Source: Timaviella obliquedivisa GSE-PSE-MK23-08B (GTDB lineage Bacteria; Cyanobacteriota; Cyanobacteriia; Elainellales; Elainellaceae). From it: a DNA stretch of 64,000 bases. The translations under genes were made by a program, and so were the position numbers. Positions 23,136-43,696 of the stretch are shown piece after piece. Within the stretch, counting starts at the first letter, position 1; each line of letters starts with the position of its first letter. The notes beneath the pieces are model-generated. The model was not told the DNA's origin and searched no databases. It saw only the letters and a list, made by a program, of their open reading frames with translations. Location: contig JAHHII010000003.1 of assembly GCA_019358855.1 (NCBI GenBank), positions 62,001 through 126,000 of the forward strand, written 5' to 3'.

Positions 23136-23152
23136 TGGTGTCGCCTTGCTAC

Positions 23153-25739
23153 TTAAAATTCCCACGAGATTTGCCCCTGCATTGTAAATGGCTCACCGGG
23201 AAACACCTCCAACTCTCCGTAGGAAGCCTGAAAATAATCTACATTGAATAAATTTTGAAGATTGAGGGAAGCACGAAAACGATCATGCCGATAATAAATC
23301 GCCGCATCCGTCCGCAGGTAACTAGGCAAAACAAATGCATCGCTAAACCCTTGACGCTCACCGACGTAGAATAACCCCAAGCCAAACCCTAAACCTTGTA
23401 AGGCACCTTGTTGAATTTGATAAGTAGTCCATAGGTTAACAGAGTTCTCAGGTACATTACTCAAGCGACCGCCTACAGGAAGATCATTATCTCTAGTGAT
23501 TTGGGCATCCGTGTAGGCATAGCCCGCAGTAATGTTCCATCCCGGCAAAATTTCGCCTGCGACGCTGAGTTCAACACCTCGGCTACGCTGTTCACCGACT
23601 TGAATCGAAAATCCTTCATTGTCCGGATCAGACGTTAGAACATTGGATCGTGTCAATTCGTAAAGAGCAAGGGTTGTCGAAAGCCGATCATTCAAGTCCG
23701 CTTTGATTCCAACCTCATACTGAGTGCCACGCTCTGGTTGAAAACTGCTACCATCAAATGCTATGCCAAGGACTGGAGCAAATGAGTTAGTGTAACTGGC
23801 ATAAAGTGAAATTGGCTCAATAGGCTGATAAACAATTCCGACACGAGGACTGAGTGCGTTACCGGATTGATTGTTTGATTCAGTAACTCCTGTTCCTGCT
23901 CGAAAAAATCGATCAGTTTGATCATACATATCAAACCGTACACCCAGCAGCAGCTTAAGATTCTCTAGCAGGGTAATCTGATCTTGAACATAAAAGCCTA
24001 AATCATTTCTTAAAAAGGTATTGATTCTAGTAAGAGATGGAGTCTCAAAAGGCTGCCCGTACACAGGGTCAAACAAGTCAATTGATCCGATGGTTCCGAA
24101 GGAGTCTTGAATGCTAAAGGATGCGTAACCCAGGTTGGCTCCAAAGACTAGCTGATGCCCTATCGAGCCAGTTGAGAAATTACCTGTAAGGTTTAATGCG
24201 ACTTCGTAGGCATCATTTTCGAGATCCCTGAATAGGGTAGAACGATTTAGCGTTCGGTTATCAGGCTCAAGGCTATCAGGGAGAATAAATAGTAAATCCT
24301 CTCGAAGTGAGCCGAACTGAAACGCATTCTGTAGTGACCAGGTATCACTAAACTGATGCTCTAGCCTATATCCAACTCTGGTCGTAGTACCATCTATGGA
24401 AGCGTCAGTTTCTCCAATATAACGATCTCGGGCGATGCGACCATTGGGATTAGGCAATACAGTGCCGACTGCTGGTAGTCCCGGAGTAAACGAAGTTTGT
24501 GCATCTGTATAATCGAATTCTATTGTTAAATTAGTTCTATCTCCAATTGCCCAGCTTAATACAGGAGCAACAAAAAATTGATTCTCCTTGTAAATATCAA
24601 TGAAGCTATTTCTATCCAGATAAGATGCATTGAGTCGATATAAAACTGTCCTGGAGTCATTCAGTGGACCAGACAAGTCTGCTGTAACCCGGTAAAAATC
24701 AAAGCTGCCAATTGTGGCATCAAGGGAGTAGAAAGGTTCGCGTAGCGGTTGCTTTGTCAGCAGGTTGATGGTTCCACCTGGATTACCTGGACCAAACAGC
24801 ACTGAAGCTGGACCCTGGAGAAATTCAACCCTCTCAATATTAGTAAAAACAGTTGGCGCTCCTGAAAAACGTTCTCTCAGACCATTTCTAAGAAAATTGC
24901 CACCAAAAGGAAAGACTCCAAAGCCTCGGATATTAATTAAGCTATCGGGCTGTGTGGAAGGCGAGATTTGGTTTGCCGCAGGAACATTTCTAATGACTTC
25001 TTCCAAACGAATGACGTTTTGATCTTCTAGCACTTGCCGAGGCACGACTTGAATAGATTGGGGAATATCTCTCAATGGTGTAATCCGTTCGCGTGGCGGT
25101 CGAGGCATCATCCACTGCATATCCCTCTTCCTGCTCCCCCGTCACCACTACCTGAATTGCATCTTCCTCAACTTCTACTGTCGCTGTGCCCCTCGTAACA
25201 CTCAAGACCAAGTTTTGAGCTTCTGTGTTGACCGTCGCTGTGGGTGGAGCCTCTGATCCTGTGATCGCCACTCGAATGCCGTCCCCTCGCGGTGTAATGC
25301 TTACTAAAGCAATGCCTTCCGCCGGATTAGCTGCCTGAAACTCATTGCCCTCCGGCAATGCCAGCACTGCATTCGGGATATCTACAATTAACGCATTGCC
25401 AACCACCGAAGTAGTAGGAGTCAGTTCTCCTGAAGTCTCTAAAACGATCGCAATTCCATCGGCTGTGGCATTGAGATTCACACCCGTAATCTGCGCGATC
25501 GCCTGGGCAATCTCAGTCAACCATTCATTCATCGTGGTCGCAGGCTGCTCAATCTGGCTGAGGCGAGGAATTTCAGTTTCCCTTTTAGTCTCCTGAAGCT
25601 CTGCAACTTCGGCAGTCTGCGCTTCTATCGTTCCTGTCTCTTGAGATCTATTCTCCTGCTCAACCTCTGCCCAGGCAGGGCAAGCCATCAGCATGAGTAA
25701 AACACCCGCTATCCAAATCGATCGCTGTTGTTGATTCAT
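23153..25739 (-). pseudogene. TonB-dependent siderophore receptor with AMIN domain, split by a one-base insertion
   Basis: The 5' part (from ATG at 25739, MNQQQRSIWIAG) encodes the signal peptide, AMIN domain (about 75-180), DAIQVVVTG and TATRTD, then runs into another frame. The 3' part resumes the exact family sequence at TPLRDIPQSIQVVPRQ and continues through plug (FLQGPASVLFGPGNPGG) and barrel to ISWEF. Removing one A at 25082-25083 (plus strand TGTAATCC to TGTATCC) restores TATRTDTPLRDIPQ and a single frame of 861 residues, the usual length. No other damage is visible, so the event is recent, phase-variable, or a sequence error. The conserved GGTGTGTGGAG lies just before the start, and the neighbouring AraC and binding protein genes are intact. 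Confidence 0.88.
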
Positions 25740-25793
25740 AACTCCACACACCAAAACACAAGAGACGGTAAGACAGAACTCCTTACCCTCAAT

Positions 25794-27102: not shown

Positions 27103-28113
27103 CTATGGCGAAATGACTTGATCTAGGCGACTGACCTGATACTGCTTAACCGTCTCCAATGATTTTTCGTCTCCTGAATTCCACATCGTCGTGACCTGAC
27201 CGCAAGCCTCAACTCTGGCTGTGTAGGCACCCGATCGAGTTCCATCTGGTGAGGTAAAGTTAATGCGAACCTCTGCCCAGTTAGGATAATCTGCATCGGA
27301 TGGGTCGATCGCCAATGTTTCGCTATGCTTGAGGTAATTGAGCCAATCCCAACCTTCCTGCATCCAGATTTCTCGCTCGGCAATTTGTTCAGCCCAGCCT
27401 AGTCCTGCCCATCCTCGGTAAAACGATCGCAACCCCGCTACAGAACCATTGCGATGCACTAGCAAATCCAGAATTTCTGGCTCTAAATGCCCCCAGTAGC
27501 GACCTTCGGGTAGATCGAGTAGGGTGGGTGCAAACTGATGTCCGCCAAAATGGGAACAGCGCCAGACTTGGAGAGATGATGAATGGCGCATGGCGTACTC
27601 TTTGCGAAGTTTTTCATAGATGGGATAACCAAACCTGCCGCAAGCCACGTCGTAGTTGCTATGGGTACAGATTAGTAAGTCTCGGATGTGATTGGTGTTT
27701 TGCTGATAGGACGTGAAGTTGGGAAGTTGGTCTGGTTGAGTAAGCAAGGCGTTGATCAGAGGAGCTAGTTCAGTAAACGGCAGAATGAATTCCTGCTTGG
27801 TGTATTGTGCAAATTGCTTAGCAGGGCGCTGGTAATAGATGACTCGTGTGGCATTGGGCTGGGTGTAGTCTCGATCGGGCGCAATGGCTAGTGGTCTGAA
27901 GTTGATATCCTGATTCCAAGCAGTTTGAAACACATCGATGACTGGTTGGGGCAACGTTCCAGGTTCAATCCAAATTGCAGGCGACCAGGGTTGAGGCAGT
28001 TCAATCAGCAGAAAGCGATCGTAGGTGGCTCCTGTGCCGATCGGATCTTCGTGATTAGATTTGGACACAACTGAACAAAATCGGCAGGTAGTTAAAGCTT
28101 GGTTAGGAGACAT
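27103..28113 (-). CDS. Sucrase/ferredoxin-like thioredoxin-fold [2Fe-2S] protein
   Basis: Protein of 336 residues from the ATG at 28113 (MSPNQALTTCRFC). It belongs to the Suc/Fer family, related to yeast Apd1, whose [2Fe-2S] cluster is held by two Cys and two His. Here the candidate ligands are HSNYDVACGRFG (Cys149, Cys158) and HFGGHQFAP (His188, His192), plus a CRFC near the N-terminus. It is soluble, with no signal peptide. As third gene after receptor 29160-31787 and binding protein 28157-29137 (44 bp upstream), it may supply electrons for releasing iron from the imported siderophore; that role is inferred. The last 50 residues match a gene relic at 20155-20301. Confidence 0.85.
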   Translation of the reverse strand: MSPNQALTTCRFCSVVSKSNHEDPIGTGATYDRFLLIELPQPWSPAIWIEPGTLPQPVIDVFQTAWNQDINFRPLAIAPDRDYTQPNATRVIYYQRPAKQFAQYTKQEFILPFTELAPLINALLTQPDQLPNFTSYQQNTNHIRDLLICTHSNYDVACGRFGYPIYEKLRKEYAMRHSSSLQVWRCSHFGGHQFAPTLLDLPEGRYWGHLEPEILDLLVHRNGSVAGLRSFYRGWAGLGWAEQIAEREIWMQEGWDWLNYLKHSETLAIDPSDADYPNWAEVRINFTSPDGTRSGAYTARVEACGQVTTMWNSGDEKSLETVKQYQVSRLDQVISP

Positions 28114-28156
28114 AAGCAAATCAACATGAATGGATACCAAGAGTTGTTATTGATGA

Positions 28157-29137
28157 TTAATTCCTGACGAGATACTTGAACAGATCATCAATGACGGCAT
28201 TGGCAGCCAGCGGCCCTGCTCCAATCCAGTAGCCAGGAACCTCATAGACTTTCCCTTGCTGCACGGCGTTTAATTGTGCCCATAGTGGATCGGTTTTCAA
28301 CTGCTTTAGGGCAATCTGCGCCTCTTGCTGGTATTGCTGGTTATAGCCATACGTCCACATAAAGATCACATCTCCGTCAGCATCTCGAATGCGTTCTTTA
28401 GAAATCTCGTAAGCTGCCCCTGACTTGTCTTGAGAAGGCGGACGAGGTAATCCGGCATCCTCTAAAATTGTGCCAATGAAAACATCGTTTAGATAGAGAC
28501 TAATGTGAGTGGGATAGACGCGCACAACGGAGACTTGAGTGTTCTCTAATCGCTCGCCCATTTGAGTTTTGAATGTCTCTAGCCGATCGTTGTAGTCTTG
28601 TAAAATCTGTTCCGCAACATCGGTCTTTCCCAACGCCTCGGCAAAGTTCATCAGTGCTGCTTTCCAATCCTTTGAGTCTTTGTGAGGCGTTAAAACTGTT
28701 GGGGCAATTTGTGATAATTGACGATAGGTTTGCTCGTGGATCATTGTGCCTAAAATTAAATCAGGTTTAAGCGCCAATATTTTCTCCAGACTGGGTTCTC
28801 CTTCGCTACCCAGGTTTTCAATTCCTTGTATCTTTCCTTGAAAATAGGGCGGAGTATTTTCAAAAATAACGCTGCCAACGGGTTTAGCCTGTAATGCCAA
28901 AACGCATTCTAAGGCATATTCATCTAGTGTGATAATCCGGTTGAGATTAGTGGGAACTGTGGTTTTCCCCTTACCGTGTTCAACAACGTGTACTGCTGCG
29001 GAAGATTGTAATTCTACACCATTGTCTCCGCTATCTCCTAATTGTTCGACACTGCTGCCATTGCAGGCAATCACCCAAACTAACGTGATAATCACCAGCA
29101 GAATCCGCAAAATCGATCGATGCATTCTTCCCGCCAT
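28157..29137 (-). CDS. Ferric-siderophore periplasmic binding lipoprotein (FecB/FhuD-like)
   Basis: Protein of 326 residues with lipobox WVIAC (Cys25). Landmarks: HGKGKTTVPTNLNRIITLDEY (no Cys in the TTVP motif, unlike most paralogs), then LKPDLILGTMIHE, and the C-terminal YEVPGYWIGAGPLAANAVIDDLFKYLV shared in part with all seven proteins. It follows its receptor by 22 bp and precedes the sucrase/ferredoxin-like gene by 43 bp, giving a three-gene operon. Confidence 0.92.
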   Translation of the reverse strand: MAGRMHRSILRILLVIITLVWVIACNGSSVEQLGDSGDNGVELQSSAAVHVVEHGKGKTTVPTNLNRIITLDEYALECVLALQAKPVGSVIFENTPPYFQGKIQGIENLGSEGEPSLEKILALKPDLILGTMIHEQTYRQLSQIAPTVLTPHKDSKDWKAALMNFAEALGKTDVAEQILQDYNDRLETFKTQMGERLENTQVSVVRVYPTHISLYLNDVFIGTILEDAGLPRPPSQDKSGAAYEISKERIRDADGDVIFMWTYGYNQQYQQEAQIALKQLKTDPLWAQLNAVQQGKVYEVPGYWIGAGPLAANAVIDDLFKYLVRN

Positions 29138-29159
29138 GCCACATCTCTGCTACATTTTT

Positions 29160-31787
29160 CTAAAACTCTACCGATACGCTGCCCACAATCGTCAAGGGTT
29201 CACCCGGTCTAACTGTGTTGGTTCCAAAATCTGCCCCTGCAAAATGCCGCTCATCAAACAAGTTCTTGATGTTAAGCGCGGCTCTCCAGTTATCACGACG
29301 ATAATAGACAGCCGCATCCGTGCGGATAAAAGAGGGTAATTCATAGGTGTTATCAAAATTACCGGGTCTATTATCGACATAGAATAAGCCAATACCAAAT
29401 CCCAATCCCTGGAGCGTTCCAGTTTGTATCTCATACGTTGTCCAGAGACTAGCCGTATTGGGAGCAACATTGGCGTTGCGTAATCCCTCCGGAAAGAAGG
29501 GATCATCGCCACTGTCTGTGACTTTGGCATCCGTGTAAGCATAGGAGGCAATGATATTCCAACCGGATAAGATTTCCCCTGCAACATCCAATTCAATCCC
29601 CTGGCTTCTGACTTCACCCAAGGGCAGCGAGAAGTTGGGATCGTCTGGATTGGTAGTAGCCACGTTGGTCTTGGTCAGATGGTACGCGGCCAAATTTGCA
29701 ATCAGGCGATCGCCTAGAAATTCGCCGCGAATGCCCACCTCAAACTGTCGTCCCCGTTCGGGTTCCAGAAAAGAACCATCGGATTGGGTAAACACATTAG
29801 GCTGAAACGACTGGCTATAGCTGGCATAGAGTGAAATGGGTTCGATCGGCTGATAGAGAATGCCAATTCGGGGAGAGAAAGCCTCTTCGTTTTGGTCACT
29901 GCCAGTACCGCTCAGAAAACTGAAAGAACTCTGATCAATAATGTCGAATCGTCCACCGATCAGCAGATGCAAGTTGTCTAAGAGGTCAATTTGATCCTGG
30001 ATAAAAAAGCCCACTGTGTTGGTGGCATTGAAGCGATCGATAGTCAGCAGCGGCAGATCCGATCGCTCAGGTCGGAAGGCACCGTATTCTGGGTCAAAGA
30101 TGTTAATCGATGGAGTAGACTCGGCGGCTCTGGTATTGCTGCGCTGGGTGTTTCGGCTCCAGTCTACGCCCAATAACAGGGTATGGTCGACCGATCCCGT
30201 TGAGAACTCTCCCACTAGCTCGGTCTGGAGGGCAAAACTCTCGCGGTGGTCATCATTGGAACGCAAATTGCGCGTCAATATCCCCGTTTCCTCGTCCAAA
30301 CTATCAGGCTGAAAGGCAGAGTCTAAGGAATCGCTAAACAGCGTCCGGAAAGCGTTTCGCACCCGCCAGTTGTCGCTAAAGCGATGCTCAAAACGGTATC
30401 CTGCGCCAACTTCTTCCACCTGCCGGAAATCATCTTCCTCGCCCAGTATTCGGCTGATGGGAATATCTGCCACTTCATCGCCAATGACCACTAAGCCGCG
30501 ATCGAAGGGGCGCTCGTCGCGCACATGATCAAATTCCAGTGTCAGATCGGTGCGATCGCTAATTTGCCAGGTCAACACCGGAGCAATAAAGTATCGTTCG
30601 GTGGCGCGGCTAAAATCTCGAAACCCGTCTTCGTTCAGGTAAGCCGCATTGAGGCGATACAGCAGAGTTTCATCGTCGTTTAAAGGGCCCGAAAAATCGA
30701 TCGACGGACGCACAAAGCCGTAATTCCCCAACTTTAGTTCTGCGGAGTAGTAGGGATCAGACAGCGGTATTTCGGTAATAAAGTTGATCACACCTCCCGG
30801 TTCCAGATTGCCATAGAGTAACGAGGCTGGACCTTTCAGCACTTCGACTCGTTCAATATTGGCAAATTCTCGAATGCCTTGAGCGTTGTCTCTGAAGCCA
30901 TTACGTAAATACAAATCAAAGGCTGGAAACCCCCGGATCACGAAGCCACCATCCTGCGTGTTCCCAAACGTGTTGCCTGGGACGACCCCGCTGACGTTGC
31001 GAACCGCGTCTTCCAGTTGAATTACCTGCTGGTCTTCGAGAATCTGTCGGGGAACCACCTGAATCGATTGGGGAATATCTCGCAGTGGTGTATCGGTGCG
31101 GGTGGCGGTCGTCGCCTCATCGACCTGATATCCCTCTTCCTGCTCCCCAGTCACCACCACCTGAATCGCGTCTTCCTCTGTCACTTCTCCCGGTTCACCC
31201 GATGTCACACTCACCACCAATTCCTGAGCCTCCGTGCTTACCTCAGTCACAGGCGGCGCATCTGTTCCTGTAATGGCAACTCGCACCCGATTATTGGGCA
31301 AATTGGTCACACTGATTAGCGCAATTCCCTCACTTGGATCGGCTACCCGGAATTCATCCTCATCTGGCAAGACCAGTGTTGCATCTGAGATATCAATAAT
31401 CAACGCATTGCCCACAATAGAAGGGGAAGCAGGCTGCAATTGCCCTGTTGCATCCAGAATGACCTCTACTCCCTCTGGAGTTTGGTTTAATCGTACTCCT
31501 GTAATTTGCACCAAAATCTGTGCCAGCCATTCCTCAACCGTTGTTGCAGGTTGCTCAAGTTCGCTGACTGTGGGGAGTAGCGAGTGGGGAGTAGCGAATG
31601 AAAAAAAATCTTCATCGATTTGCGGTTCTGGTCTATCTCTTATCTCTTCTTCGCCCTGATCCCTAATTCCCCATTCCTGATCCCTATTTTCTATTCCCTC
31701 CAAGCTCACCTCTGCCCAAGCAAATGGAGCCAACCACACCGAGAACAAGCTTGCAATAAGCGACGATCGCCACAACAAATTCAACAT
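29160..31787 (-). CDS. TonB-dependent siderophore receptor with N-terminal AMIN domain
   Basis: Receptor of 875 residues from the ATG at 31787 (MLNLLWRSSLI). Signal peptide, then a Glu/Arg-rich linker, AMIN domain (about 95-200), DAIQVVVTG, plug TPLRDIPQSIQVVPRQ with VLKGPASLLYGNLEPGG, and barrel ending VSVEF. The motif GGTGTGTGG lies directly before the start. It belongs to a close subgroup with the receptors at 35777 and 41038, which share RVEVLKGPAS and the NxEPGG turn. It heads the operon 29160-28157-27103. Box 31857-31871 and operator 31921-31953 lie upstream. Confidence 0.93.
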   Translation of the reverse strand: MLNLLWRSSLIASLFSVWLAPFAWAEVSLEGIENRDQEWGIRDQGEEEIRDRPEPQIDEDFFSFATPHSLLPTVSELEQPATTVEEWLAQILVQITGVRLNQTPEGVEVILDATGQLQPASPSIVGNALIIDISDATLVLPDEDEFRVADPSEGIALISVTNLPNNRVRVAITGTDAPPVTEVSTEAQELVVSVTSGEPGEVTEEDAIQVVVTGEQEEGYQVDEATTATRTDTPLRDIPQSIQVVPRQILEDQQVIQLEDAVRNVSGVVPGNTFGNTQDGGFVIRGFPAFDLYLRNGFRDNAQGIREFANIERVEVLKGPASLLYGNLEPGGVINFITEIPLSDPYYSAELKLGNYGFVRPSIDFSGPLNDDETLLYRLNAAYLNEDGFRDFSRATERYFIAPVLTWQISDRTDLTLEFDHVRDERPFDRGLVVIGDEVADIPISRILGEEDDFRQVEEVGAGYRFEHRFSDNWRVRNAFRTLFSDSLDSAFQPDSLDEETGILTRNLRSNDDHRESFALQTELVGEFSTGSVDHTLLLGVDWSRNTQRSNTRAAESTPSINIFDPEYGAFRPERSDLPLLTIDRFNATNTVGFFIQDQIDLLDNLHLLIGGRFDIIDQSSFSFLSGTGSDQNEEAFSPRIGILYQPIEPISLYASYSQSFQPNVFTQSDGSFLEPERGRQFEVGIRGEFLGDRLIANLAAYHLTKTNVATTNPDDPNFSLPLGEVRSQGIELDVAGEILSGWNIIASYAYTDAKVTDSGDDPFFPEGLRNANVAPNTASLWTTYEIQTGTLQGLGFGIGLFYVDNRPGNFDNTYELPSFIRTDAAVYYRRDNWRAALNIKNLFDERHFAGADFGTNTVRPGEPLTIVGSVSVEF

Positions 31788-31856
31788 CACACCACACACC
31801 TCATGAGCAATGGGAAAGTACAGGGAGTGGGCGAAATCATTGCTGCTCCCTGCTAT

Positions 31857-31871
31857 TACTAATCTTTCTCA
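31857..31871 (-). promoter_or_regulatory. Fur-like box upstream of receptor 29160-31787
   Basis: TACTAAT-C-TTTCTCA on the plus strand; a weaker match, 70 bp before the start, preceded on the coding strand by CCGGTAAGCTT as at the split receptor. Confidence 0.5.
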
Positions 31872-31920
31872 ATAAGCTTACCGGGAAATAAGATCTAACT
31901 TGCAGGTACTTTTAGCTTCA

Positions 31921-31953
31921 AACGGATTTTTTTTGTTTTCAAACGGATTTTTT
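31921..31953 (-). promoter_or_regulatory. Direct-repeat operator upstream of receptor 29160-31787
   Basis: Half sites TTCAAACGGATTTTTTTT and TTCAAACGGATTTTTTG, CGG at 31923 and 31944, 21 bp apart. The repeat includes the TTCAAA lead, so this is the longest exact direct repeat of the set. Confidence 0.68.
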
Positions 31954-31965
31954 GTCAACCCACAC

Positions 31966-32985
31966 TCATGCAGTTGAAGACTGATTCGACATAGAAACAG
32001 ACAAAACCGTGGATTTCTGAAATAATTTAGGATTAACGCCAAATTTCCTCTTGAATGCCACAGCAAACGCGCTCTGACTCGTATAGCCGACTGCTTTCGC
32101 GGCTTCTCGGATATTAATTTGTCCAGTGGTCAGCAATTGTTGGGCTTGCTCCAATCGATAATCGTGGAGATATCCAAACACCGTTTTGCCAAACACCTGA
32201 CGAAAACCTTGCTTGAGCTTGCAATCATTCAGTCCAACTTGATGAGCCAACTCCAACAAAGAAGGCGGATTGTCTAAACGGTTGAGGAGAATTTCTTTGG
32301 CATGGTGAATGCGATCGACATCATCTCGCTTCAGAAACGATGAAACTTGAGATTTGCCGCTGCGAATATCTAACTCTTGCTCAATTAACAAGGTCAACAA
32401 TTCCCAAACTTTGCATTCTAGATACAGGCGTTTGGTGATACCTTGATAAGGGCAATTCAACAGTTGTTGCAAGACCACCTGCATGGGTACTGTGGTGAGA
32501 CCAGAGCGAAAATAGTATTCTTGAGTGGACTGCTGAATCAGGTGTTTTAACTCAGGAGGAAGTTGATCTGCTGGGTTGCCTAAGAAGTTGCCAAATAATT
32601 CTGGTTCAATATGGACATTAACCGTTAAGTGCCGTTCCTGAGCAAAGGATCGGCTGATTTCTCTGGGGGCTACACCGCTACCACAGAAGTTATATTGCCC
32701 TGCCCTGAAGACGCGATCGCCGCTGGTGGAACTATTGCAGAGATAAAACATATATTCCAGTGGGTGTTCTCGATCGGGTGCTTCTGAAATCACATCGTCA
32801 TGCAGCGTATAGTCAGCAATGGTCAGATATAATCCTTCCCGCAGATCAACCTCTCGCCAAAACCCATGTCCTAACTGCGACGGGTATTTCCGAATGATAT
32901 CAACTTCATCAGAAGCAGGCTGTTTACCTTCTACACTTTCCTGAAATAATGCCCAGTAGTCAGCTTGAGAGAGTGCGATCGCCAT
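31966..32985 (-). CDS. AraC family transcriptional regulator (PchR-like)
   Basis: Regulator of 339 residues from the ATG at 32985 (MAIALSQADYWALFQE). DNA-binding half: DDVDRIHHAKEILLNRLDNP, PSLLELAHQVGLNDCKLKQG and GYTSQSAFAVAFKRKFGVNP. The tail SVSMSNQSSTA is unique. It lies just upstream of the receptor operon 29160-27103 and is probably its activator. Its promoter region and first codons are nearly the same as those of the regulator at 38601-39575, part of a duplicated block of about 190 bp. Confidence 0.9.
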   Translation of the reverse strand: MAIALSQADYWALFQESVEGKQPASDEVDIIRKYPSQLGHGFWREVDLREGLYLTIADYTLHDDVISEAPDREHPLEYMFYLCNSSTSGDRVFRAGQYNFCGSGVAPREISRSFAQERHLTVNVHIEPELFGNFLGNPADQLPPELKHLIQQSTQEYYFRSGLTTVPMQVVLQQLLNCPYQGITKRLYLECKVWELLTLLIEQELDIRSGKSQVSSFLKRDDVDRIHHAKEILLNRLDNPPSLLELAHQVGLNDCKLKQGFRQVFGKTVFGYLHDYRLEQAQQLLTTGQINIREAAKAVGYTSQSAFAVAFKRKFGVNPKLFQKSTVLSVSMSNQSSTA

Positions 32986-33000
32986 ATTGTGAGATTGAAC

Positions 33001-33186
33001 TAGTTGCAACTAATTCTCAATATTTTTGCACAGTTCGCTAATCACTTGAAGCGATCGCCGATTTTTTTAAGAAACAGGTGGAACGCGAACTAATAAACGC
33101 GATCGTAAGGACTCAGGCATTTTAGCTGGCAACACGTAGCCGTCTTCACTTTGCCTATAAAGTTGATCAAATTGCAGCAACGCATC
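33001..33186. repeat. 186-bp duplicated block, copy 1
   Basis: Nearly the same as 39591-39776. It spans the AraC promoter (Fur-like box, HIP1) and the 3' end of a DUF1636 gene. In copy 2 the DUF1636 gene is whole; in copy 1 the match ends at GCGCATCGGC, after which the sequence follows another DUF1636 gene. Confidence 0.85.
33005..33019 (-). promoter_or_regulatory. Fur-like box upstream of AraC gene 31966-32985
   Basis: TGCAACT-A-ATTCTCA on the plus strand, 20 bp before the start. An identical box lies at 39595-39609. Confidence 0.6.
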
Positions 33187-33262
33187 GGCTTCATTTGCGG
33201 GAACGTTGGTGAAGAGATAGGTGACTTTGTCTGCGGCAGAGAAGGCAATGGCATAAACTCGC
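33067..33262 (-). pseudogene. Mosaic DUF1636 relic (C-terminal half only)
   Basis: On the minus strand this encodes about 60 C-terminal residues of a DUF1636 protein ending LRSRLLVRVPPVS and a stop, as at 39657-40040. The 5' part of the relic (33181-33253), however, matches the gene at 34334-34702 (FSA.DK.TYLFTN.PANEADALLQF). The N-terminal Cys residues are absent. It therefore looks like a recombinant between two DUF1636 copies that lost its start. Confidence 0.78.
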
Positions 33263-33319
33263 TGAGTTTGATTTGAGCTAATCTAAAGAGGCAACCGTGG
33301 CATACTCAGCAGTTCTCAT

Positions 33320-33478
33320 ATGACACAGATACCAGCAAACGCCTACCCCTTTGTTGAAGAATTTTTGACTGACAATAGTGGTCAAGTCTGCAAGGTTGTC
33401 TTGCAAGTAGATGATTATCGGCGGCTACTCGAAGCGCTTGAAGATGAATGGCTATATCGAGCGATAACAAGACGTTAA
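33320..33478 (+). pseudogene. Decayed antitoxin gene, followed by a toxin remnant
   Basis: From the ATG at 33320 the frame gives MTQIPANAYPFVEEFLTDNS and then VVLQVDDYRRLLEALEDEWL, like a RelB/Phd-type antitoxin, and stops at 33478. In another frame the sequence goes on as DVKHEVPLSLSAALQELDSDEG and stop, a fitting antitoxin C-terminus, so a one-base loss near 33470 broke it. Directly after comes ATG with MKVEYISRS and then KKLLAIA in a shifted frame, the start of a RelE-type toxin cut short by the neighbouring VapC-like gene. Confidence 0.6.
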
Positions 33479-33574
33479 GCATGAAGTTCCGCTCAGCTTG
33501 AGTGCTGCCCTGCAAGAACTTGATAGCGATGAAGGTTGAATATATCAGCCGCTCAAAAAGCTGCTTGCCATTGC

Positions 33575-33991
33575 TTAGTTATTCATTCGTAGCAACGCTT
33601 GGTAACCTGCCTGCACAAAATGCTCATCAGCAGTAACAGCTTCACTCAGGTTTTGATTTTTCATTACCACAAATGAAATGCAGTCTGTTAAGCCCCAGTC
33701 CTTGTCATTACGAGCAGCATAAAGCTGTAAGGCTTGATCGAGTAATGCTGTGTCAACACTCATGACATGAATATTTGGAGTTTGATAGCACAACTGAATA
33801 AATTCAACGGCTCCCTGCCGATTCACCTCACTCAGACCATTGCCTACTTCAATTAAAATGGCTTCTGTAATCCACACCTCTGCTGCTTCAACCTGAGGCA
33901 ACAGAGCCAGCGCCTTAGCATGATACCGATCGCGGGAATTGTAGAGGGCTTGAATAAACACTGTGTCAAGAAAAAGACGGCTTTGGCTCAT
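33575..33991 (-). CDS. VapC-like PIN domain toxin
   Basis: Protein of 138 residues with the PIN quartet visible: Asp9 in LFLDT, Glu48 in ILIEVG, Asp103 in WGLTDCISF and Asp122 in TADEHF. All are in place, so an active ribonuclease toxin is likely. It lies four bases downstream of the antitoxin gene at 33996-34274. The pair is on the same strand as the siderophore operon but comes after the DUF1636 gene; it separates the intact DUF1636 gene from the mosaic relic. Confidence 0.88.
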   Translation of the reverse strand: MSQSRLFLDTVFIQALYNSRDRYHAKALALLPQVEAAEVWITEAILIEVGNGLSEVNRQGAVEFIQLCYQTPNIHVMSVDTALLDQALQLYAARNDKDWGLTDCISFVVMKNQNLSEAVTADEHFVQAGYQALLRMNN

Positions 33992-33995
33992 CTAT

Positions 33996-34274
33996 TTAAG
34001 ACTCTCGCTTTGGAGTGCCATAGAGATAGTGGTCATGCTCTTTAGACCAGTCTTCTGGCATCTCTACTGTTCCGGCATGAGCGCGTAAAACCATCCAGGC
34101 TGTTTTAACTACTGCTGATTGCGCTGTCGGTTCTCCGTTAGTTGCTGCTTGTGCTAACAATGCTTCGTTGATCACCACCACTGCTCGATGAGTTCCCGGC
34201 GGCAAATCTGAGGCTAACTCAATCGTGAGCTTTCCCTCACGATCGACCACGGCGATGGTTTCTATGGTTCTCAT
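33996..34274 (-). CDS. VapB-like antitoxin
   Basis: Protein of 92 residues with a beta-rich start (MRTIETIAVVDREGKLTIEL, then LPPGTHRAVVVINE) and a C-terminal region ending DHYLYGTPKRES that probably binds the toxin. No DNA-binding domain is clear. Pairing with the PIN gene four bases downstream supports the call. Relics of a related antitoxin lie at 1620-1790 and 2588-2630. Confidence 0.78.
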   Translation of the reverse strand: MRTIETIAVVDREGKLTIELASDLPPGTHRAVVVINEALLAQAATNGEPTAQSAVVKTAWMVLRAHAGTVEMPEDWSKEHDHYLYGTPKRES

Positions 34275-34333
34275 CCTGAAGCCTCTCTCATACCCTAAAT
34301 TGAGTGCTAATCCAGTTTAGCGCCCACTGCCCT

Positions 34334-34702
34334 TTAGACCGATGGAATTTTAGCCACCTCTGCTGATTGCAACACTTCAGGAAATTGCTTCCAGGGGATG
34401 TCTCCATTCTGGCTGTTGAGATAGAGTTCGCCAAATTGGAGCAGCGCATCGGCTTCATTTGCAGGGAGGTTGGTGAAGAGATAGGTGGCTTTATCGGTGG
34501 CGGAGAAGGCAACGGCGCAGGGATGGCTGCACGTCCACAGACATCCAACTGCTCGAATTTCCAGATCCGCTTGGTGCGTCCAGGTTTGATGTAGGTTCTG
34601 GAGTTTGTTCAACAGTTTGGAGCCGTCGGATGGGTCTGTAGTTTGGTCTTGATCAGACTCGGCGTTGCAGGATTTGCAGATGAATAAGACGTGTTTAACC
34701 AT
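34334..34702 (-). CDS. DUF1636 Cys-rich thioredoxin-fold metal-binding protein
   Basis: Protein of 122 residues. Five Cys are visible: Cys9 and Cys12 in FICKSC, then Cys54, Cys58 and Cys62 in GCLWTCSHPC, a spacing like that of thioredoxin-like [2Fe-2S] ferredoxins. DUF1636 has no proven function. It follows the binding protein at 34708-35754 by five bases, as third gene of the operon starting at 38422. By position it takes the place held by the sucrase/ferredoxin-like gene in the 29160 operon, so I infer a redox or metal-handling role in releasing iron. Confidence 0.85.
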   Translation of the reverse strand: MVKHVLFICKSCNAESDQDQTTDPSDGSKLLNKLQNLHQTWTHQADLEIRAVGCLWTCSHPCAVAFSATDKATYLFTNLPANEADALLQFGELYLNSQNGDIPWKQFPEVLQSAEVAKIPSV

Positions 34703-34707
34703 GACTC

Positions 34708-35754
34708 TTATTGTTCTTCAATTAGGTATTTGAAAAGGTCATCAATTACGGCATTTGCAGATAGAATACTGCTACCAATCCAATAGCTAGGCACCTCGTA
34801 AACTTGTCCTTGCTGAACAGCTTTGAGTCGTTGCCAGAGTGGATCAGCTTTGAGTTTGGCAATTTCAGTTTGCACCTCTTGCTGAGATTGCCCGGACTCA
34901 TTATTCCACAAAAAGATCACGTCTCCGTCAGCAATTTGCAGACTTTCTTTAGAGATGTCTAACTGTCCAGTTGGGGTTTGTAAAAGCGGACGAGCCAATC
35001 CAGCGTCTTCTATGATTGAGCCAACAAAGGTATCGCTAGTATAAATTGAGATCGTGTTGGGATAAATCCGAATAATAGAAACTTCAAGCTGTTGCAAGCG
35101 AGTGCCCATTTGAGCTTTGAAGTCGGCTAAGCGATCGCCATAAGATACCATAAGCTGGTTTTTCACATCTGTCATACCAAGCGTTTCTGCGTTATGCATC
35201 AGGATATCTTTCCACTGTCCGCTGCTTTCAAAGTTAAATAAAACAGTAGGGGCGATTTTCGTAAGCTGTGAGTATATTTTTTCATCTTCGGTCAGCCCTA
35301 AGATCAGGTCTGGTTTAAGCGCAAGAATTTTTTCCAGGCTCGGCTGAGTAAAGTTGCCAACTGCTTCAATGCCAGATAGGCGATCGCGCAAATAGTCTCG
35401 ATCGTTTAGCCAGTCTGGGGACATGGCAACTCCTATAGGCTGTATTCCAAACGCCAAAACGTTTTCAAGTGAGAATGGGTCAATTGTCACCACGCGCTGA
35501 GGATTAAGAGGAACACAGGTTTCGCCCATAGCGTGTTCAACGATTCGACAATCTGATGTTTGAAGTGGTGAGTCAGAGACGCTATCTGATGAAACGTTGT
35601 TACCACAGGCTGAAACTAGACAAAGAATCAGGGTGATCAAAATCAGTAAATGGAACCAGAAATACTTAAAAAAAACGCCAGAAACTCGGAAGTGAGTAAC
35701 TTGTCTAAAACCTTGCACCCACAGAATTCCTTTACTTCTCGGCAGAAAGTTCAC
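34708..35754 (-). CDS. Ferric-siderophore periplasmic binding lipoprotein (FecB/FhuD-like)
   Basis: Protein of 348 residues starting at a GTG 22 bp after the receptor stop. A long leader of 50 residues ends in lipobox LVSAC (Cys50). Landmarks: MGETCVPLNPQRVVTIDPFS, LKPDLILGLTEDE and the C-terminal YEVPSYWIGSSILSANAVIDD. The long charged leader before the hydrophobic stretch is unusual; no ATG lies between the GTG and the lipobox, so the GTG start is likely real. It sits between receptor 35777-38422 and DUF1636 gene 34334-34702. Confidence 0.9.
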   Translation of the reverse strand: MNFLPRSKGILWVQGFRQVTHFRVSGVFFKYFWFHLLILITLILCLVSACGNNVSSDSVSDSPLQTSDCRIVEHAMGETCVPLNPQRVVTIDPFSLENVLAFGIQPIGVAMSPDWLNDRDYLRDRLSGIEAVGNFTQPSLEKILALKPDLILGLTEDEKIYSQLTKIAPTVLFNFESSGQWKDILMHNAETLGMTDVKNQLMVSYGDRLADFKAQMGTRLQQLEVSIIRIYPNTISIYTSDTFVGSIIEDAGLARPLLQTPTGQLDISKESLQIADGDVIFLWNNESGQSQQEVQTEIAKLKADPLWQRLKAVQQGQVYEVPSYWIGSSILSANAVIDDLFKYLIEEQ

Positions 35755-35776
35755 AGCTTCTCTTACCCCTAACTCT

Positions 35777-38422
35777 TCAGAATGTTACTGAGACTGAACC
35801 GACAATGGTAAAAGGTGTGCCTGGCGTAATTACCGCTCGATCATCGACGGCTTCAGTATAGTCGATATTAAAGAGATTCCTAACATTGATGCCCGCTCGC
35901 CAGTTGTCTCGTCGGTAAAAAAGACTGGCATCGGTACGGAGATAACTTGGAACGCTGAAGGAATTCTCTAAGTCTTGTCGATCGCCAACAAAAAATAGTC
36001 CTAGTCCAAAGCCCAACCCTTGCAAGTCTCCGCTTTGAATTTCGTAGGTTGACCATAAACTAGCGGCATGTTTTGGTACACCTGCCAGTCGATTTCCCTC
36101 TAACGGACTGCCTTCATCCTCGGTCACTTCGGCATCTGTGTAGGCATAGGAGGCAATAATATTCCAACCGGAAAGGATTTCGCCAATCACATCTAGTTCA
36201 ATTCCCTGACTTCTCTGCTCTCCAGTTGCAATACTGAAGTCCGGGTTATCCGGGTCTGTAGCCGCAATGTTAGTTTTGGTCAGGTAATAGGCTGCCACGT
36301 TGGTCGTCAGTCTATTTTCAAAGAACTCACCTCTAACACCAACTTCATATTGCGTACCGCGTGTAGGTTCGAGGATGTCTCCTTCAACGGTTGTACCAAA
36401 GTTGGGGGCAAAGGAACGACTGAAGCTGGCGTAAAGGGAAAGTGGTTCGATGGGTTGATAGACAATCCCGATGCGGGGAGAAAATGCCTCGTCTTGTTGT
36501 TGGTCAGTTGTATCTGAGAGAACATCTCCAGCAGAAACAGATGTAAAGAAAGAATCTTGATCGACGATGTCAAAACGTCCACCTACGAGTAGCTTTAAAT
36601 TATCTGTCAATGCAATCTGATCTTGCAGATAAAGTCCAAAAGCCCGTACTGTTCCTCCGAACAAAGACTGTCTTTCATTTTCAAGCTCAGATCGGCTTGG
36701 TCTGGGAGCACCATAAACTGGGTCAAAAATGTTGATGATACTACGCTCAAGCGCGGATCGATTATCAAAATCATTCGTTTCTCTGGAGAAATCAGCCCCT
36801 AGTAAAAGGGTATGTTCGATCGAGCCTGTAGAGAACTCACCTACAAGATTGGTTTGCAGAGCATAGCCTTCGATAGTACCATTTTGGTCAGTAATGTCTC
36901 TTGCTAATTCACCTGTTTCTTCGTTCAGATTGCCCCTATTTTGAAACGCTCTCGTTGTACGCTCTGTCGAAATATAGCGAAAGACATTCCGGAGTTGCCA
37001 GTTTTCGCTGAACCGATGTTCTAGGCGATAGCCAGCCACATACTGGTTCCTGATATTAACATCATCCGGTTCGCCCAAAATTCGATCGAATGGGATATCG
37101 GCGATTTCATCACCAATGGCAGCTAAGCCGCGATCGAAGGGACGTTCATCGTAGAGATACTCAAAGTTTAAGGTTAAATCTGTATTGTCAGTAATGGCTA
37201 AACTGAGTACAGGGGCAACAAAAATTCGCTCAATTCCCTGATCAAACTCACGAAAATCATCAGCCGTTTGATAAACCGCATTCAACCGATAAAGTGCAGT
37301 GCGATCGGAGTTGAGTGAACCAGACAAATCAATGCTAGGACGAAGCAAACCAAAGTTTCCAGCTTGAAGTTCGACTTCATAAAATGGATCTTCTAAAGGC
37401 TGTTCTGTGACAACGTTGATAATACCGCCTGGCTCAAGGGTGCCATACAAAACAGACGCCGGACCTTTGAGCACTTCTACCCTTTCTATATTTGCGGTTT
37501 CTCTAAAACTGCTATTATTTCCTAGATTAGATGTACCTAGTTCAATACCATCTAATAGAACATTGTTGGTTTGAAAACCCCGAATCAAAAATGCATCGCC
37601 ACTATTACCAAAATTGCTGCCTTCAATCACTCCGCTCACATTGCGGGTCGCCTCTCGAAGCTGAATGACTTGCTGGTCTTCTAATACCTGCTGAGGAATG
37701 ACTTGAATGGATTGAGGAATGTCGCGTAATGGCGTATCTGTTCGGGTTGCAGTTGTGGCATCAGATGGGCTGTAGCCTTCATCCTGCTCTCCCGTTACCA
37801 CAACCTGAATCGCATCCTCATCGGTTTCTGCCGCTTCAGTTCCAGGCGTAACAGCTAACACTAATCCCAATGATTCCACGCTCAAATTAGCAGTAGGCGG
37901 CGCATCCACTCCGGTAATTGCCACCCGAACGCGATCGCCCGGTAAACTGGTCACGCTCACCAACGCAATTCCTGCCGTCGGATTTGCTGCCTGAAACTCA
38001 TCGCCCTCTGACAGTGCCAGCACCGCATTGGGAATATCCACAATCAGCGCATTTCCCACCACCGAGGTAGAAGGAGTCTCCAAAGATTCAGACGTTTCCA
38101 GCGTAATTTCTAAACCCGTATCGGTTGCTGTCACCTGCACCCCTGTCACCTGCACCTGTGCTTGGGCAATTTGAGCCATCCACTCATCCACAGTGGTTGC
38201 GGGTTGCTCAAGGTCGTTGAGATGTGGGATTTCTAGAGTTAAGGGATCTTGTACGTCACTGGTTAACTGTCCTTCGTTTCGTAGCAACCCACGATCGACC
38301 ACCAATGACTCCTCCCTTCCAGATTGCCTATCCCCGATTTCCTCTTCCGCCAAAACACTGGGGACAACAAGTAGTGAAAAAATACCCGATAAAACCACGA
38401 GTTGTACAAATCGATTCACCAT
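35777..38422 (-). CDS. TonB-dependent siderophore receptor with N-terminal AMIN domain
   Basis: Receptor of 881 residues from the ATG at 38422 (MVNRFVQLVVLSG), preceded by GGTGTGTGGAG. Signal peptide ending near VPSVLAEEE, AMIN domain (about 105-205), DAIQVVVTG, plug TPLRDIPQSIQVIPQQ with VLKGPASVLYGTLEPGG, barrel ending VSVTF. The open frame reaches 38497 but the extra 25 residues include the ribosome-binding region and are not credible. It heads the three-gene operon with 34708-35754 and 34334-34702. Confidence 0.93.
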   Translation of the reverse strand: MVNRFVQLVVLSGIFSLLVVPSVLAEEEIGDRQSGREESLVVDRGLLRNEGQLTSDVQDPLTLEIPHLNDLEQPATTVDEWMAQIAQAQVQVTGVQVTATDTGLEITLETSESLETPSTSVVGNALIVDIPNAVLALSEGDEFQAANPTAGIALVSVTSLPGDRVRVAITGVDAPPTANLSVESLGLVLAVTPGTEAAETDEDAIQVVVTGEQDEGYSPSDATTATRTDTPLRDIPQSIQVIPQQVLEDQQVIQLREATRNVSGVIEGSNFGNSGDAFLIRGFQTNNVLLDGIELGTSNLGNNSSFRETANIERVEVLKGPASVLYGTLEPGGIINVVTEQPLEDPFYEVELQAGNFGLLRPSIDLSGSLNSDRTALYRLNAVYQTADDFREFDQGIERIFVAPVLSLAITDNTDLTLNFEYLYDERPFDRGLAAIGDEIADIPFDRILGEPDDVNIRNQYVAGYRLEHRFSENWQLRNVFRYISTERTTRAFQNRGNLNEETGELARDITDQNGTIEGYALQTNLVGEFSTGSIEHTLLLGADFSRETNDFDNRSALERSIINIFDPVYGAPRPSRSELENERQSLFGGTVRAFGLYLQDQIALTDNLKLLVGGRFDIVDQDSFFTSVSAGDVLSDTTDQQQDEAFSPRIGIVYQPIEPLSLYASFSRSFAPNFGTTVEGDILEPTRGTQYEVGVRGEFFENRLTTNVAAYYLTKTNIAATDPDNPDFSIATGEQRSQGIELDVIGEILSGWNIIASYAYTDAEVTEDEGSPLEGNRLAGVPKHAASLWSTYEIQSGDLQGLGFGLGLFFVGDRQDLENSFSVPSYLRTDASLFYRRDNWRAGINVRNLFNIDYTEAVDDRAVITPGTPFTIVGSVSVTF

Positions 38423-38481
38423 GACTCCACACACCTGGGATACTATCAGAGCCAGCGGTTTGTTAGTCGCCAGCCCGGTAA

Positions 38482-38496
38482 TAAGAATATTTCTCA
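38482..38496 (-). promoter_or_regulatory. Fur-like box upstream of receptor 35777-38422
   Basis: TAAGAAT-A-TTTCTCA on the plus strand, 60 bp before the start; CCGGTAATCT precedes it on the coding strand. Confidence 0.58.
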
Positions 38497-38545
38497 AATA
38501 GATTACCGGAGTGTGAGGTCAGATAGGCGATCGCAATGTCTGCTC

Positions 38546-38580
38546 AACGGAATATTTTTGTGAACTAGACGGAATTTTTG
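38546..38580 (-). promoter_or_regulatory. Direct-repeat operator upstream of receptor 35777-38422
   Basis: Half sites AACGGAATATTTTT and GACGGAATTTTTG, CGG at 38548 and 38570. The period is 22 bp rather than 21 through one extra base in the spacer, which holds the CTAGA seen in other copies. HIP1 lies to the left (38528-38535). Confidence 0.63.
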
Positions 38581-38600
38581 CTTAAACTAATGCTGAAGCG

Positions 38601-39575
38601 CTATCCATGCCCTTTGCGGTAGGCTCCAGGCGTACAGCCAAACTTCTGACAAAATGCCTTGGTAAAGTAGTTGCGGGCAAACCCTATAGACCGAGCAACC
38701 TCAGCAACCGTCATCTCTCCAGTGGTGAGAAGTTGTCTAGCTTGCTCTAGCCGATAGTGATGCAAATAGCCAAATGCCGTCGTACCAAACACCTGACGAA
38801 AGCCGCGCTTCAGGGTACACTCGTTTAAGCCAACCTGCCGTGCCAGTTGCGTCAAAGACGGTGGATTGTTTAAATTCTGCAACAAGATGGCTTTAGCGTG
38901 GTGAATCCGATCGACATCATCGGGCTTCAGCCAGACAGGAGATTGTTTGCCTTGTTGAGTTTCCACCTCCTGCTCCAGCAATAACGCCATCAATTCCAAC
39001 ACTTTGCTTTCTAGAAACACTCGCTGGGTAAATCCTTGATAGGGACAGTGCAAAATTTGCTGCAAGGCGATGTGCATTGCTGGTGTCGCCTGCCCCGGAC
39101 GGACGTAGTATTCCTGATTGCGATCGCCAATCAAGTGTTGCAGCGCGGCGGGAACCTCTCCATTAGGGTTGCCTGCAAACGATTGAAATACCTCCGGCTC
39201 AATGTGAACGCTTACCCACATGCTTCGCTGGTTAGCAAATTGTTTCCAATGCTCTCCCGGTGAAATGCCGCTGCCGTAGAGGTGGTAAAGAATAGCATCA
39301 GCCGAAGCTTGATGTCCGCCTGCAAGGTTAAAGGTGTATTCAAGCGGATGTTCGCAGTCGAAAGAATGGGTGATGATATCGTCATGGGTTTGATAGTCTG
39401 CGATATCCAACACCAATCCCTCTCGCAAGCTAATCTCTCGCACAGAGCCATGTCCCAAAAGCGATGGATACTTCCAGGTGATGTCTAACTGATCCGCAGT
39501 AGATACAGTGTGCTCATCTGCTGCACTCTCTTGAATCAGCGACCAGTAGTCAGATTGTGAAAGGGCGATCGCCAT
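38601..39575 (-). CDS. AraC family transcriptional regulator (PchR-like)
   Basis: Regulator of 324 residues from the ATG at 39575 (MAIALSQSDYWSLIQE). DNA-binding half: DDVDRIHHAKAILLQNLNNP, PSLTQLARQVGLNECTLKRG and a second helix unit GFARNYFTKAFCQKFGCTP. The second unit differs from its paralogs (GFANRSYFASAFRKKFG): it is one residue shorter and has Cys and Lys substitutions in the recognition helix region, so its DNA specificity may be changed. It is upstream of receptor operon 35777-34334. Confidence 0.9.
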   Translation of the reverse strand: MAIALSQSDYWSLIQESAADEHTVSTADQLDITWKYPSLLGHGSVREISLREGLVLDIADYQTHDDIITHSFDCEHPLEYTFNLAGGHQASADAILYHLYGSGISPGEHWKQFANQRSMWVSVHIEPEVFQSFAGNPNGEVPAALQHLIGDRNQEYYVRPGQATPAMHIALQQILHCPYQGFTQRVFLESKVLELMALLLEQEVETQQGKQSPVWLKPDDVDRIHHAKAILLQNLNNPPSLTQLARQVGLNECTLKRGFRQVFGTTAFGYLHHYRLEQARQLLTTGEMTVAEVARSIGFARNYFTKAFCQKFGCTPGAYRKGHG

Positions 39576-39590
39576 ATTGTGAGATTCGGC

Positions 39591-39776
39591 TAGTTGCAAC
39601 TAATTCTCAATATTCTTGCACAGTTCGCTAATCACTTGAAGCGATCGCCGATTTTTTTAAGAAACAGGCGGAACACGAACTAATAAACGCGATCGTAAGG
39701 ACTGAGGTATTTTAGCTGGCAACACGTAGCCGTCTTCACTTTGCCTGTAAATTTGACTGAATTGCAGCAACGCATC
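39591..39776. repeat. 186-bp duplicated block, copy 2
   Basis: Partner of 33001-33186; here the DUF1636 gene it overlaps is complete. Confidence 0.85.
39595..39609 (-). promoter_or_regulatory. Fur-like box upstream of AraC gene 38601-39575
   Basis: TGCAACT-A-ATTCTCA, identical to 33005-33019, within the duplicated 186-bp block. Confidence 0.6.
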
Positions 39777-40040
39777 AGCGATCGCCTCAGCAGGTAGATC
39801 GACAAAATGATAGGTGTATTTTTCAGGACAAGCAAAAGTGACAGAACAAGGGCGATCGCACGTCCATAAACATCCTACAGCTTGAACATTTAATTTATTA
39901 TGCTCAGACTGATTCTGATTGAGTTGTTGTAACTGATTGAGTAACAGCACTCCTTCTGTGATTGTCTCTTCGGTGACATCATCATGGGCGATCGATGCGC
40001 TACAGGATTTGCAAACAAATAGCGTATGTTTTGTCATCAT
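39657..40040 (-). CDS. DUF1636 Cys-rich thioredoxin-fold metal-binding protein
   Basis: Protein of 127 residues with Cys10 and Cys13 in FVCKSC and Cys57, Cys61, Cys65 in GCLWTCDRPC. It resembles the gene at 34334-34702 in the Cys motifs but differs over much of the rest. Its start overlaps the stop of the binding-protein gene (ATGA), so it is translated as part of operon 41038-40037-39657. The role is inferred to be redox or metal handling after siderophore import. Confidence 0.86.
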   Translation of the reverse strand: MMTKHTLFVCKSCSASIAHDDVTEETITEGVLLLNQLQQLNQNQSEHNKLNVQAVGCLWTCDRPCSVTFACPEKYTYHFVDLPAEAIADALLQFSQIYRQSEDGYVLPAKIPQSLRSRLLVRVPPVS

Positions 40041-41023
40041 AATGGAGTTTCAACAAGATACTTGAACAGGTCATCAATCACTAAATTGGCAGCAGTCGTT
40101 CCACTTCCGATCCAATAACTTGGCACCTGATAAATTTTGTTTTGTTTTACTGCTCTCAAGCCTTGCCAAAGTGGATCAGACTTGAGTTCCGCTAATTTTT
40201 GTTGAGCTTGTTGGTTGGCTTCCGCCGTGTTTTCACCTGTCCAGATAAACATTACATCACCATCTGCTTGATGCAGCAACTCGCGGCTAATGGAAACTTG
40301 AATTTCATTGTCAAATCGCTTTTTTGCTTCTGATGCAGAAATGTTTTGGGCTTCAGGGCGCAGCAAGCCAGCATCCTGCAAAATCGTGCCGCAAAATGAC
40401 TCTTTCAGGTAAAGATTCACGCTGTCTGGATAGATGCGAACTACAGAGACTTCTGTTTGCTTTAAGCGTTCTCCCATTTTCTGTCTGAACTGATCCAGTC
40501 GCTTATCATAGTCATTCATTACTTGTTTTGCAATTTCTGTTTTTTGTAGTATCCGAGCAACGTCCATAAAAACATCTTTCCATTGACCACTGTGTTCAAA
40601 TCCATACAAAATTGTAGGCGCAATTTGTGAGGATTGAGAGTAGATCGTTTGGTGATAATCTTGTCCTATGATTAAATCGGGCTGAAGTGCTAGTATCTTT
40701 TCGAGGCTTGGTTCGCCTACATTGCCAATATCCTCAATCCCTATTAGATCTTGTTGCACCTGTGATGCAAACTCATCTGAAAGCGTAGCGCCAATCGGTT
40801 TAATGCCGAGGGCGATCGCAAACTCAAAGGTTGTTGTGTCTAATACCACCACTCGTTGAGGTTGCTTTGGAATGCAAGTTTTCCCCATTACATGAGTAAC
40901 CCTGTAGCAGTCTTTCGATTGAGGCGAAGAGACTTGATTAGGTGCAGATGCGCAGGCGGTAGCGATGCCGATCGCCAGAATCATCAGCGTTAAAAAGCGC
41001 AAAAAACGAGGAATAAACCGCAT
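40037..41023 (-). CDS. Ferric-siderophore periplasmic binding lipoprotein (FecB/FhuD-like)
   Basis: Protein of 328 residues with lipobox IATAC (Cys24). Landmarks: MGKTCIPKQPQRVVVLDTTT, LQPDLIIGQDYHQ and YQVPSYWIGSGTTAANLVIDD. It follows the receptor by 14 bp and overlaps the DUF1636 gene by four bases, the tightest of the seven cassettes. Confidence 0.92.
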   Translation of the reverse strand: MRFIPRFLRFLTLMILAIGIATACASAPNQVSSPQSKDCYRVTHVMGKTCIPKQPQRVVVLDTTTFEFAIALGIKPIGATLSDEFASQVQQDLIGIEDIGNVGEPSLEKILALQPDLIIGQDYHQTIYSQSSQIAPTILYGFEHSGQWKDVFMDVARILQKTEIAKQVMNDYDKRLDQFRQKMGERLKQTEVSVVRIYPDSVNLYLKESFCGTILQDAGLLRPEAQNISASEAKKRFDNEIQVSISRELLHQADGDVMFIWTGENTAEANQQAQQKLAELKSDPLWQGLRAVKQNKIYQVPSYWIGSGTTAANLVIDDLFKYLVETPL

Positions 41024-43668: not shown

Positions 43669-43696
43669 GCCACACACCGCCGTAAATTAATTAAAT

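Follow-up and report, generated by a model that had tools for sequence, protein, structure and literature searches.

Candidate iron-releasing electron donors of the DUF1636 and Suc_Fer families in cyanobacterial siderophore import operons

Background

FhuF is a known [2Fe-2S] ferric-siderophore reductase (PMC8068687). Here we describe a stretch of 64,000 nucleotides (nt) from the cyanobacterium Timaviella obliquedivisa GSE-PSE-MK23-08B (contig JAHHII010000003.1, positions 62,001 to 126,000; hereafter the window), in which proteins of two other families, DUF1636 (PF07845) and Suc_Fer-like (PF06999), are encoded behind the receptor and binder genes of siderophore import operons. Our analysis suggests that the last gene of many cyanobacterial operons for the import of iron carriers encodes a small iron-sulphur protein (DUF1636 or Suc_Fer in the window), which probably gives the electron that frees the iron.

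The nature of these proteins is largely known already. DUF1636 was predicted in 2015 to be a thioredoxin-like [2Fe-2S] ferredoxin, in which an extra Cys close to the first ligand stands in for one of the four Cys positions known from Aquifex (PMC4520260). With the Aquifex (1f37, 1m2a) and Azotobacter FeSI (5abr) ferredoxins it has the fold and a GCxxxC loop in common, but identity is only ~10-16% and, the second Aquifex ligand Cys being displaced, DUF1636 possesses a CxxC pair instead (PMC4520260). A thioredoxin-like ferredoxin of R. capsulatus (9jn8, molecule name ORF378, released February 2025) is itself a DUF1636 protein (profile expectation value, E, 4.6e-21). For Suc_Fer the closest described system is yeast Apd1, a eukaryotic, cytosolic protein without a siderophore link, whose thioredoxin-like ferredoxin domain binds its [2Fe-2S] cluster by 2Cys2His (PMC11126956). 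In Anabaena, alr4027 shows a ~100-fold rise on cobalt starvation (PMC10878165). No paper on ORF378, or on Suc_Fer in connection with siderophores, was found in the literature searched.

Results and discussion

The third gene of three receptor operons

The window contains seven pairs of an AMIN-type TonB-dependent receptor (TBDT) and a PF01497 binder (Pfam and gene map). In three of these pairs the binder (28157, 34708, 40037) is followed by a third gene of iron-sulphur type, at 27103, 34334 and 39657 respectively; a broken copy lies between the first two:

27103..28140, minus strand: Suc_Fer-like protein (PF06999, Apd1-type), third gene of the receptor operon 27103-31799 (Pfam E 6.5e-32, 111.6 bits)
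34334..34702, minus strand: DUF1636 protein of the siderophore branch (GCLWTC), third gene of its operon (PF07845 E 1.6e-39; tree; Cys pattern)
39657..40040, minus strand: DUF1636 protein of the siderophore branch (PF07845 E 5.3e-36; structure model)
33070..33261, minus strand: DUF1636 remnant, a C-terminal half without start and with the cluster Cys lost (PF07845 positions 55-117, E 3.3e-14, match 33076-33261)

A preliminary description of this DNA had placed these three genes behind receptor and binder and had coupled the last of them by ATGA, and both points are borne out by Pfam and by the ends of the open reading frames (ORFs): the gene at 34334 starts 5 nt after its binder, and that at 39657 shares a 4-nt overlap, ATGA, with its own. 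The Suc_Fer gene is separated from its binder by 16 nt if the listed TTG start is used; an ATG nine codons further inside is favoured by a homologue and would widen the gap to ~43 nt. The description had also held that the third position is always taken by a Cys-rich protein of thioredoxin fold, which is too strong, as four of the seven pairs (binders 2775, 9347, 13268, 22152) have no DUF1636 or Suc_Fer gene next (gene map) and the survey given below agrees.

Both intact DUF1636 proteins are full-length matches (34334, 135.4 bits; 39657, 124 bits; gathering cut-off 31.6), and in Pfam the three third-position proteins match PF06999 or PF07845 only, with no match to PF06276 or PF04954. The closest named relatives of the 39657 protein, at 85% and below, belong to Leptolyngbyaceae. 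The genome (4.9 Mb, 29 contigs) has three DUF1636 matches, all of them within one stretch of the window. The remnant, situated upstream of the AraC gene at 31966, combines a 3' end like that of 39657 with a middle part like that of 34334: in self-comparison 32122-33189 aligns with 38718-39779 at 70%, and 33157-33252 with 34421-34516 at 84%. Because it is built from pieces like the other two copies, a unit of AraC, receptor, binder and DUF1636 genes was probably duplicated as the locus grew.

Fold and cluster ligands

Four cysteines (C10, C13, C57, C61) are invariant in 118/118 DUF1636 sequences and a fifth is present in 115/118, giving the pattern CxxC ... CxxxCxxxC. The five Cys of the preliminary description are exact for the 34334 protein, while the 39657 protein has a sixth, non-conserved one. 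An AlphaFold2 model of the latter, computed with 42 relatives (mean predicted local distance difference test, pLDDT, 87.6), adopts a thioredoxin-like ferredoxin fold; its best Foldseek match is 9jn8 (E 2e-9, TM 0.76-0.77), followed by the thioredoxin-like [2Fe-2S] ferredoxins of Aquifex (1f37, TM 0.56) and Azotobacter (5abr).

In Suc_Fer, the Cys-Cys-His-His ligand candidates named earlier correspond to C158, C167, H197 and H201 (C-x8-C ... H-x3-H), which are invariant in 73/73 cyanobacterial members. Apd1 is presumably a member of the same family, PF06999. A structure model of Suc_Fer, built from two sequences, reached a pLDDT of only 36, too low to read a fold from, and no match was found among the sequences of solved structures. 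Compared by hhalign, DUF1636 and Suc_Fer show no sequence link, and each gives only weak in-register matches to a ferredoxin domain. The two families are thus unrelated by sequence and alike in kind, much as the preliminary description had supposed: DUF1636 is of the thioredoxin-like [2Fe-2S] ferredoxin kind by model and Foldseek, and Suc_Fer probably so by Apd1 (PMC11126956) and the invariant Cys2His2. The window's own proteins would accordingly be expected to hold a [2Fe-2S] cluster.

Occupancy of the third position across cyanobacteria

A search of 194 cyanobacterial genomes, with the window's binders and not DUF1636 as query, yielded 82 binder sites in 22 genomes. The gene after the binder is DUF1636 at 13 sites, Suc_Fer at 7 and FhuF at 5; nothing close follows on the same strand at 24, and MFS (major facilitator superfamily) exporters and other genes are next at the remainder. 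For DUF1636 the 13 observed sites compare with ~0.03 expected, and the chance tails are 1e-29 (DUF1636) and 2e-15 (Suc_Fer), the gene numbers used being rough. Read off the survey table, such an operon with a member of one or more of the three families occurs in 17 of the 22 genomes. A second set comprises 80 named loci, retrieved by means of the siderophore-type alignment and biased towards that type; 50 of its 81 DUF1636 genes come immediately after a binder, with a median gap of 4 nt. The third position is optional, yet DUF1636 and Suc_Fer occupy it far above chance.

In Nostocales the same position is held, in operons of the order TBDT-binder-(binder)-FhuF-MFS, by a FhuF that has the 2Fe-2S motif at its C-terminus. 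Like the window's proteins it is an iron-sulphur protein, but it belongs to another family, with a helical fold and a CC-x10-C-x2-C motif (PMC8068687). A profile search of the contigs of the window's genome revealed no match to FhuF (PF06276) anywhere and none to SIP (PF04954). FhuF-family matches occur in 10 of 386 cyanobacterial genomes and a reductase-size FhuF in only 5 of these 386, matches of ~600 amino acids or longer appearing to be of siderophore synthetase size; SIP is present in 1/194. The genes for TonB-ExbB-ExbD-FecCD-FecCD-FecE form a single cluster on another contig of the window's genome, and the genome's second Suc_Fer gene lies ~2.7 kb from the TonB gene of this cluster. FhuF in the same position, together with the lack of FhuF and SIP in the genome, favours the shared job that the preliminary description had predicted for the two families, even though the position is not always filled.

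On a plasmid of Gloeocapsopsis dulcis (L401), two Suc_Fer genes (1513-2538, 10490-11518) have as close neighbours genes of the MbtH family, an AraC gene and a DUF1636 gene missing from the annotation. One cyanobacterial genome (G289, contigs C2, C7, C11, C36, C84) contains 11 DUF1636 matches, many of which follow a receptor-binder pair and some of which are broken.

Proposed role and its alternatives

Receptor, binder and a shared TonB-ExbBD-FecCDE machine would carry the ferric siderophore into the cytosol, where the chelated Fe(III) would receive one electron from DUF1636 or Suc_Fer, either directly or via a partner. Fe(II) would then be released from the siderophore, and the two families would fill the role held elsewhere by FhuF and SIP. 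We hold with moderate confidence that the third-position proteins are cytosolic ferredoxins of the thioredoxin-like [2Fe-2S] type, that they serve siderophore-iron import specifically and that the electrons for iron release come from them. What we observe is the gene order, the family, the DUF1636 fold, the invariant ligands, a separate branch (see below), FhuF in the same position and a genome without FhuF or SIP; an electron path ending in iron reduction would be consistent with these. From sequence, a reductase and an electron donor to one cannot be distinguished.

Several observations weigh against this role. DUF1636 has no obvious siderophore-binding domain, and the family is mainly cobalamin-linked. 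Either DUF1636 or Suc_Fer is next at only about a quarter of the 82 binder sites, and therefore the electron step would not always be operon-encoded. Finally, in the Nostoc loci L349 (3596-6393) and L354 (3616-6393) DUF1636 shares a row of genes with FhuF and an MFS exporter, so that DUF1636 may not be a substitute for FhuF; strict mutual exclusion of the two is ruled out by these loci, which could also help to tell donor and reductase apart.

Such a shared operon would suit a DUF1636 that is not itself the reductase and, as a small carrier, passes electrons to a separate one, FhuF where present and another elsewhere. Thioredoxin-like ferredoxins are usually carriers, and the Btu-type operon, which pairs DUF1636 with a second ferredoxin-domain protein, points the same way. 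We nevertheless consider a mere carrier unlikely, since in most siderophore operons with DUF1636 no further gene qualifies as a reductase candidate, and FhuF and SIP are both missing from the window's genome. Alternatively, the proteins could be redox or iron sensors, or iron-sulphur or metal carriers that move the released iron on, rather than electron donors: some DUF1636 genes pair with COG0523 metal-chaperone GTPases, and CxxC plus CxxxCxxxC could hold a single metal. This appears distinctly improbable, given that the crystal structure of a family member was deposited as a thioredoxin-like ferredoxin and that FhuF occupies the same position.

A siderophore branch within DUF1636

Among 113 labelled cyanobacterial DUF1636 genes, 33 are of siderophore type, 21 stand before the precorrin-6A reductase CobK, 13 with COG0523/CobW, 8 in Btu-type operons, 4 with HupE and 3 with MetE, and 31 have no assigned type. 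On alphaproteobacterial plasmids DUF1636 is found directly before cobW-cobN or beside bluB-cobT, with two unrelated cases. Just upstream of DUF1636, 20/29 scanned non-siderophore loci have a cobalamin riboswitch (RF00174), versus 0/14 siderophore loci (Fisher p 1e-5, window counted in), and the Rfam scan of the window gave no match, hence no cobalamin riboswitch.

In the DUF1636 tree the 33 siderophore-type rows cluster together, with 3 label changes versus 28.8 in shuffles, although the alignment has few columns for many rows, and the tree contains long branches and is unsure in its deep order. The loop motif parts the branches likewise, C-[LM]-[WC]-x-C in the siderophore type versus C-M-S-A-C in the others. 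Judged by tree and motif, the siderophore type is a real, separate branch, which probably descends from, or is sister to, the cobalamin/cobalt branch with related electron-transfer chemistry. The branch looks new; like FhuF in the same position and the lack of FhuF and SIP in the genome, it was not found in the literature searched.

Described members of the family differ accordingly. ORF378 (9jn8) shares Pfam family, thioredoxin-like ferredoxin fold and five Cys with the window's DUF1636; the alphaproteobacterial genes examined, however, mostly belong to the aerobic cobalamin cluster beside cobW-cobN, whereas the window's genes are part of siderophore operons and encode a loop that reads C-[LM]-[WC]-x-C rather than C-[ML]-S-A-C. 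Anabaena alr4027 is a DUF1636 gene too, because its published primers (PMC10878165) map inside the DUF1636 gene of locus L070 and relatives. Like the window's genes it lies beside a TonB-dependent receptor and a binder, but it is controlled by a cobalamin riboswitch, responds to cobalt, is the first gene of a Btu operon and falls into another branch of the tree. That the window's operons might import cobalt or corrinoid, with DUF1636 acting as in B12 clusters, could be argued from this cobalt response and from the company of DUF1636 elsewhere (cobW-cobN, cobK, hupE and Btu genes, in many cases with control by a cobalamin riboswitch), but is highly improbable given the absence of that riboswitch from the window and all 14 siderophore-type loci, receptors that pass the siderophore model TIGR01783 and fail the B12 model TIGR01779, and the different branch and loop motif.

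The preliminary description had expected the siderophore operons to give DUF1636 a function and had named mostly unrelated neighbourhoods as speaking against this. For the family as a whole the idea fails: only one branch is of siderophore type, and most of the cyanobacterial and alphaproteobacterial genes examined have other, mainly cobalamin or cobalt, surroundings. Outside the siderophore branch, DUF1636 should be annotated as cobalamin/cobalt-linked.

Further observations concern these other groups. Btu-type loci (e.g. L074:7814-8686) encode in the cobalamin-uptake operon a DUF7676 protein, the counterpart of alr4030, whose C-terminal stretch resembles a [2Fe-2S] ferredoxin (weak NCBIfam match). 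Another DUF1636 group (L036, L096, L098, L101, L398-L400), beside threonyl-tRNA synthetase and a COG0523 GTPase, is probably zinc-related. An apparent DUF1636 fusion in G033 and G045 is taken as chance; the long frame spans the riboswitch in L123.

Organisation of the window

The remaining genes of the three operons and the four operons without a DUF1636 or Suc_Fer gene next are as follows (TIGR01783 cut-off 223.5 bits):

28157..29137, minus strand: PF01497 periplasmic siderophore-binding protein (Pfam)
29160..31799, minus strand: TonB-dependent siderophore receptor with N-terminal AMIN domain (TIGR01783, 449 bits)
31966..33009, minus strand: AraC-type regulator of the Suc_Fer operon (Pfam)
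34708..35754, minus strand: PF01497 binder (Pfam)
35777..38497, minus strand: TonB-dependent siderophore receptor (similarity to other window receptors, gene map)
38601..39599, minus strand: AraC-type regulator (gene map)
40037..41023, minus strand: PF01497 binder (Pfam)
41038..43677, minus strand: TonB-dependent siderophore receptor (TIGR01783, 469 bits)
43778..44773, minus strand: AraC-type regulator (gene map)
22152..25754, minus strand: counter-example operon, binder 22152-23165 and receptor in two frames, then an opposite-strand gene (ORF list, gene map)
13268..17020, minus strand: counter-example operon, receptor and binder, next receptor directly after (gene map)
9347..13116, minus strand: counter-example operon, receptor and binder, then MNT/HepT toxin-antitoxin genes (gene map)
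2775..6361, minus strand: counter-example operon, receptor and binder, then an opposite-strand Uma2 gene (gene map)

The receptor of the 22152 operon is split into the overlapping frames 24990-25754 and 23153-25120, by a frameshift or a sequencing error. Genes of toxin-antitoxin type (PIN, RelE, MNT/HepT) are found between or inside the receptor operons (33575-34274, 20407-21035, 21355-21934, 8558-9326). An eighth unit, elsewhere in the genome, has the order TBDT-binder-binder-MFS.

Conclusions

Cyanobacteria import ferric siderophores, yet within our survey nearly all lack both known cytosolic reductase families. DUF1636 and Suc_Fer are candidates for the missing step and, with a diagnostic motif and operon linkage, make the question testable. 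A wider and more tentative possibility, to which we give less than even weight, is that DUF1636 is a family of electron donors to chelated metals, one branch of which would serve corrinoid cobalt while another was recruited to the reduction of ferric siderophores and would, with Suc_Fer, take the place of FhuF and SIP in cyanobacteria, nearly all of which lack these two. If the proposed role is true, one branch of a domain of unknown function would gain a role.

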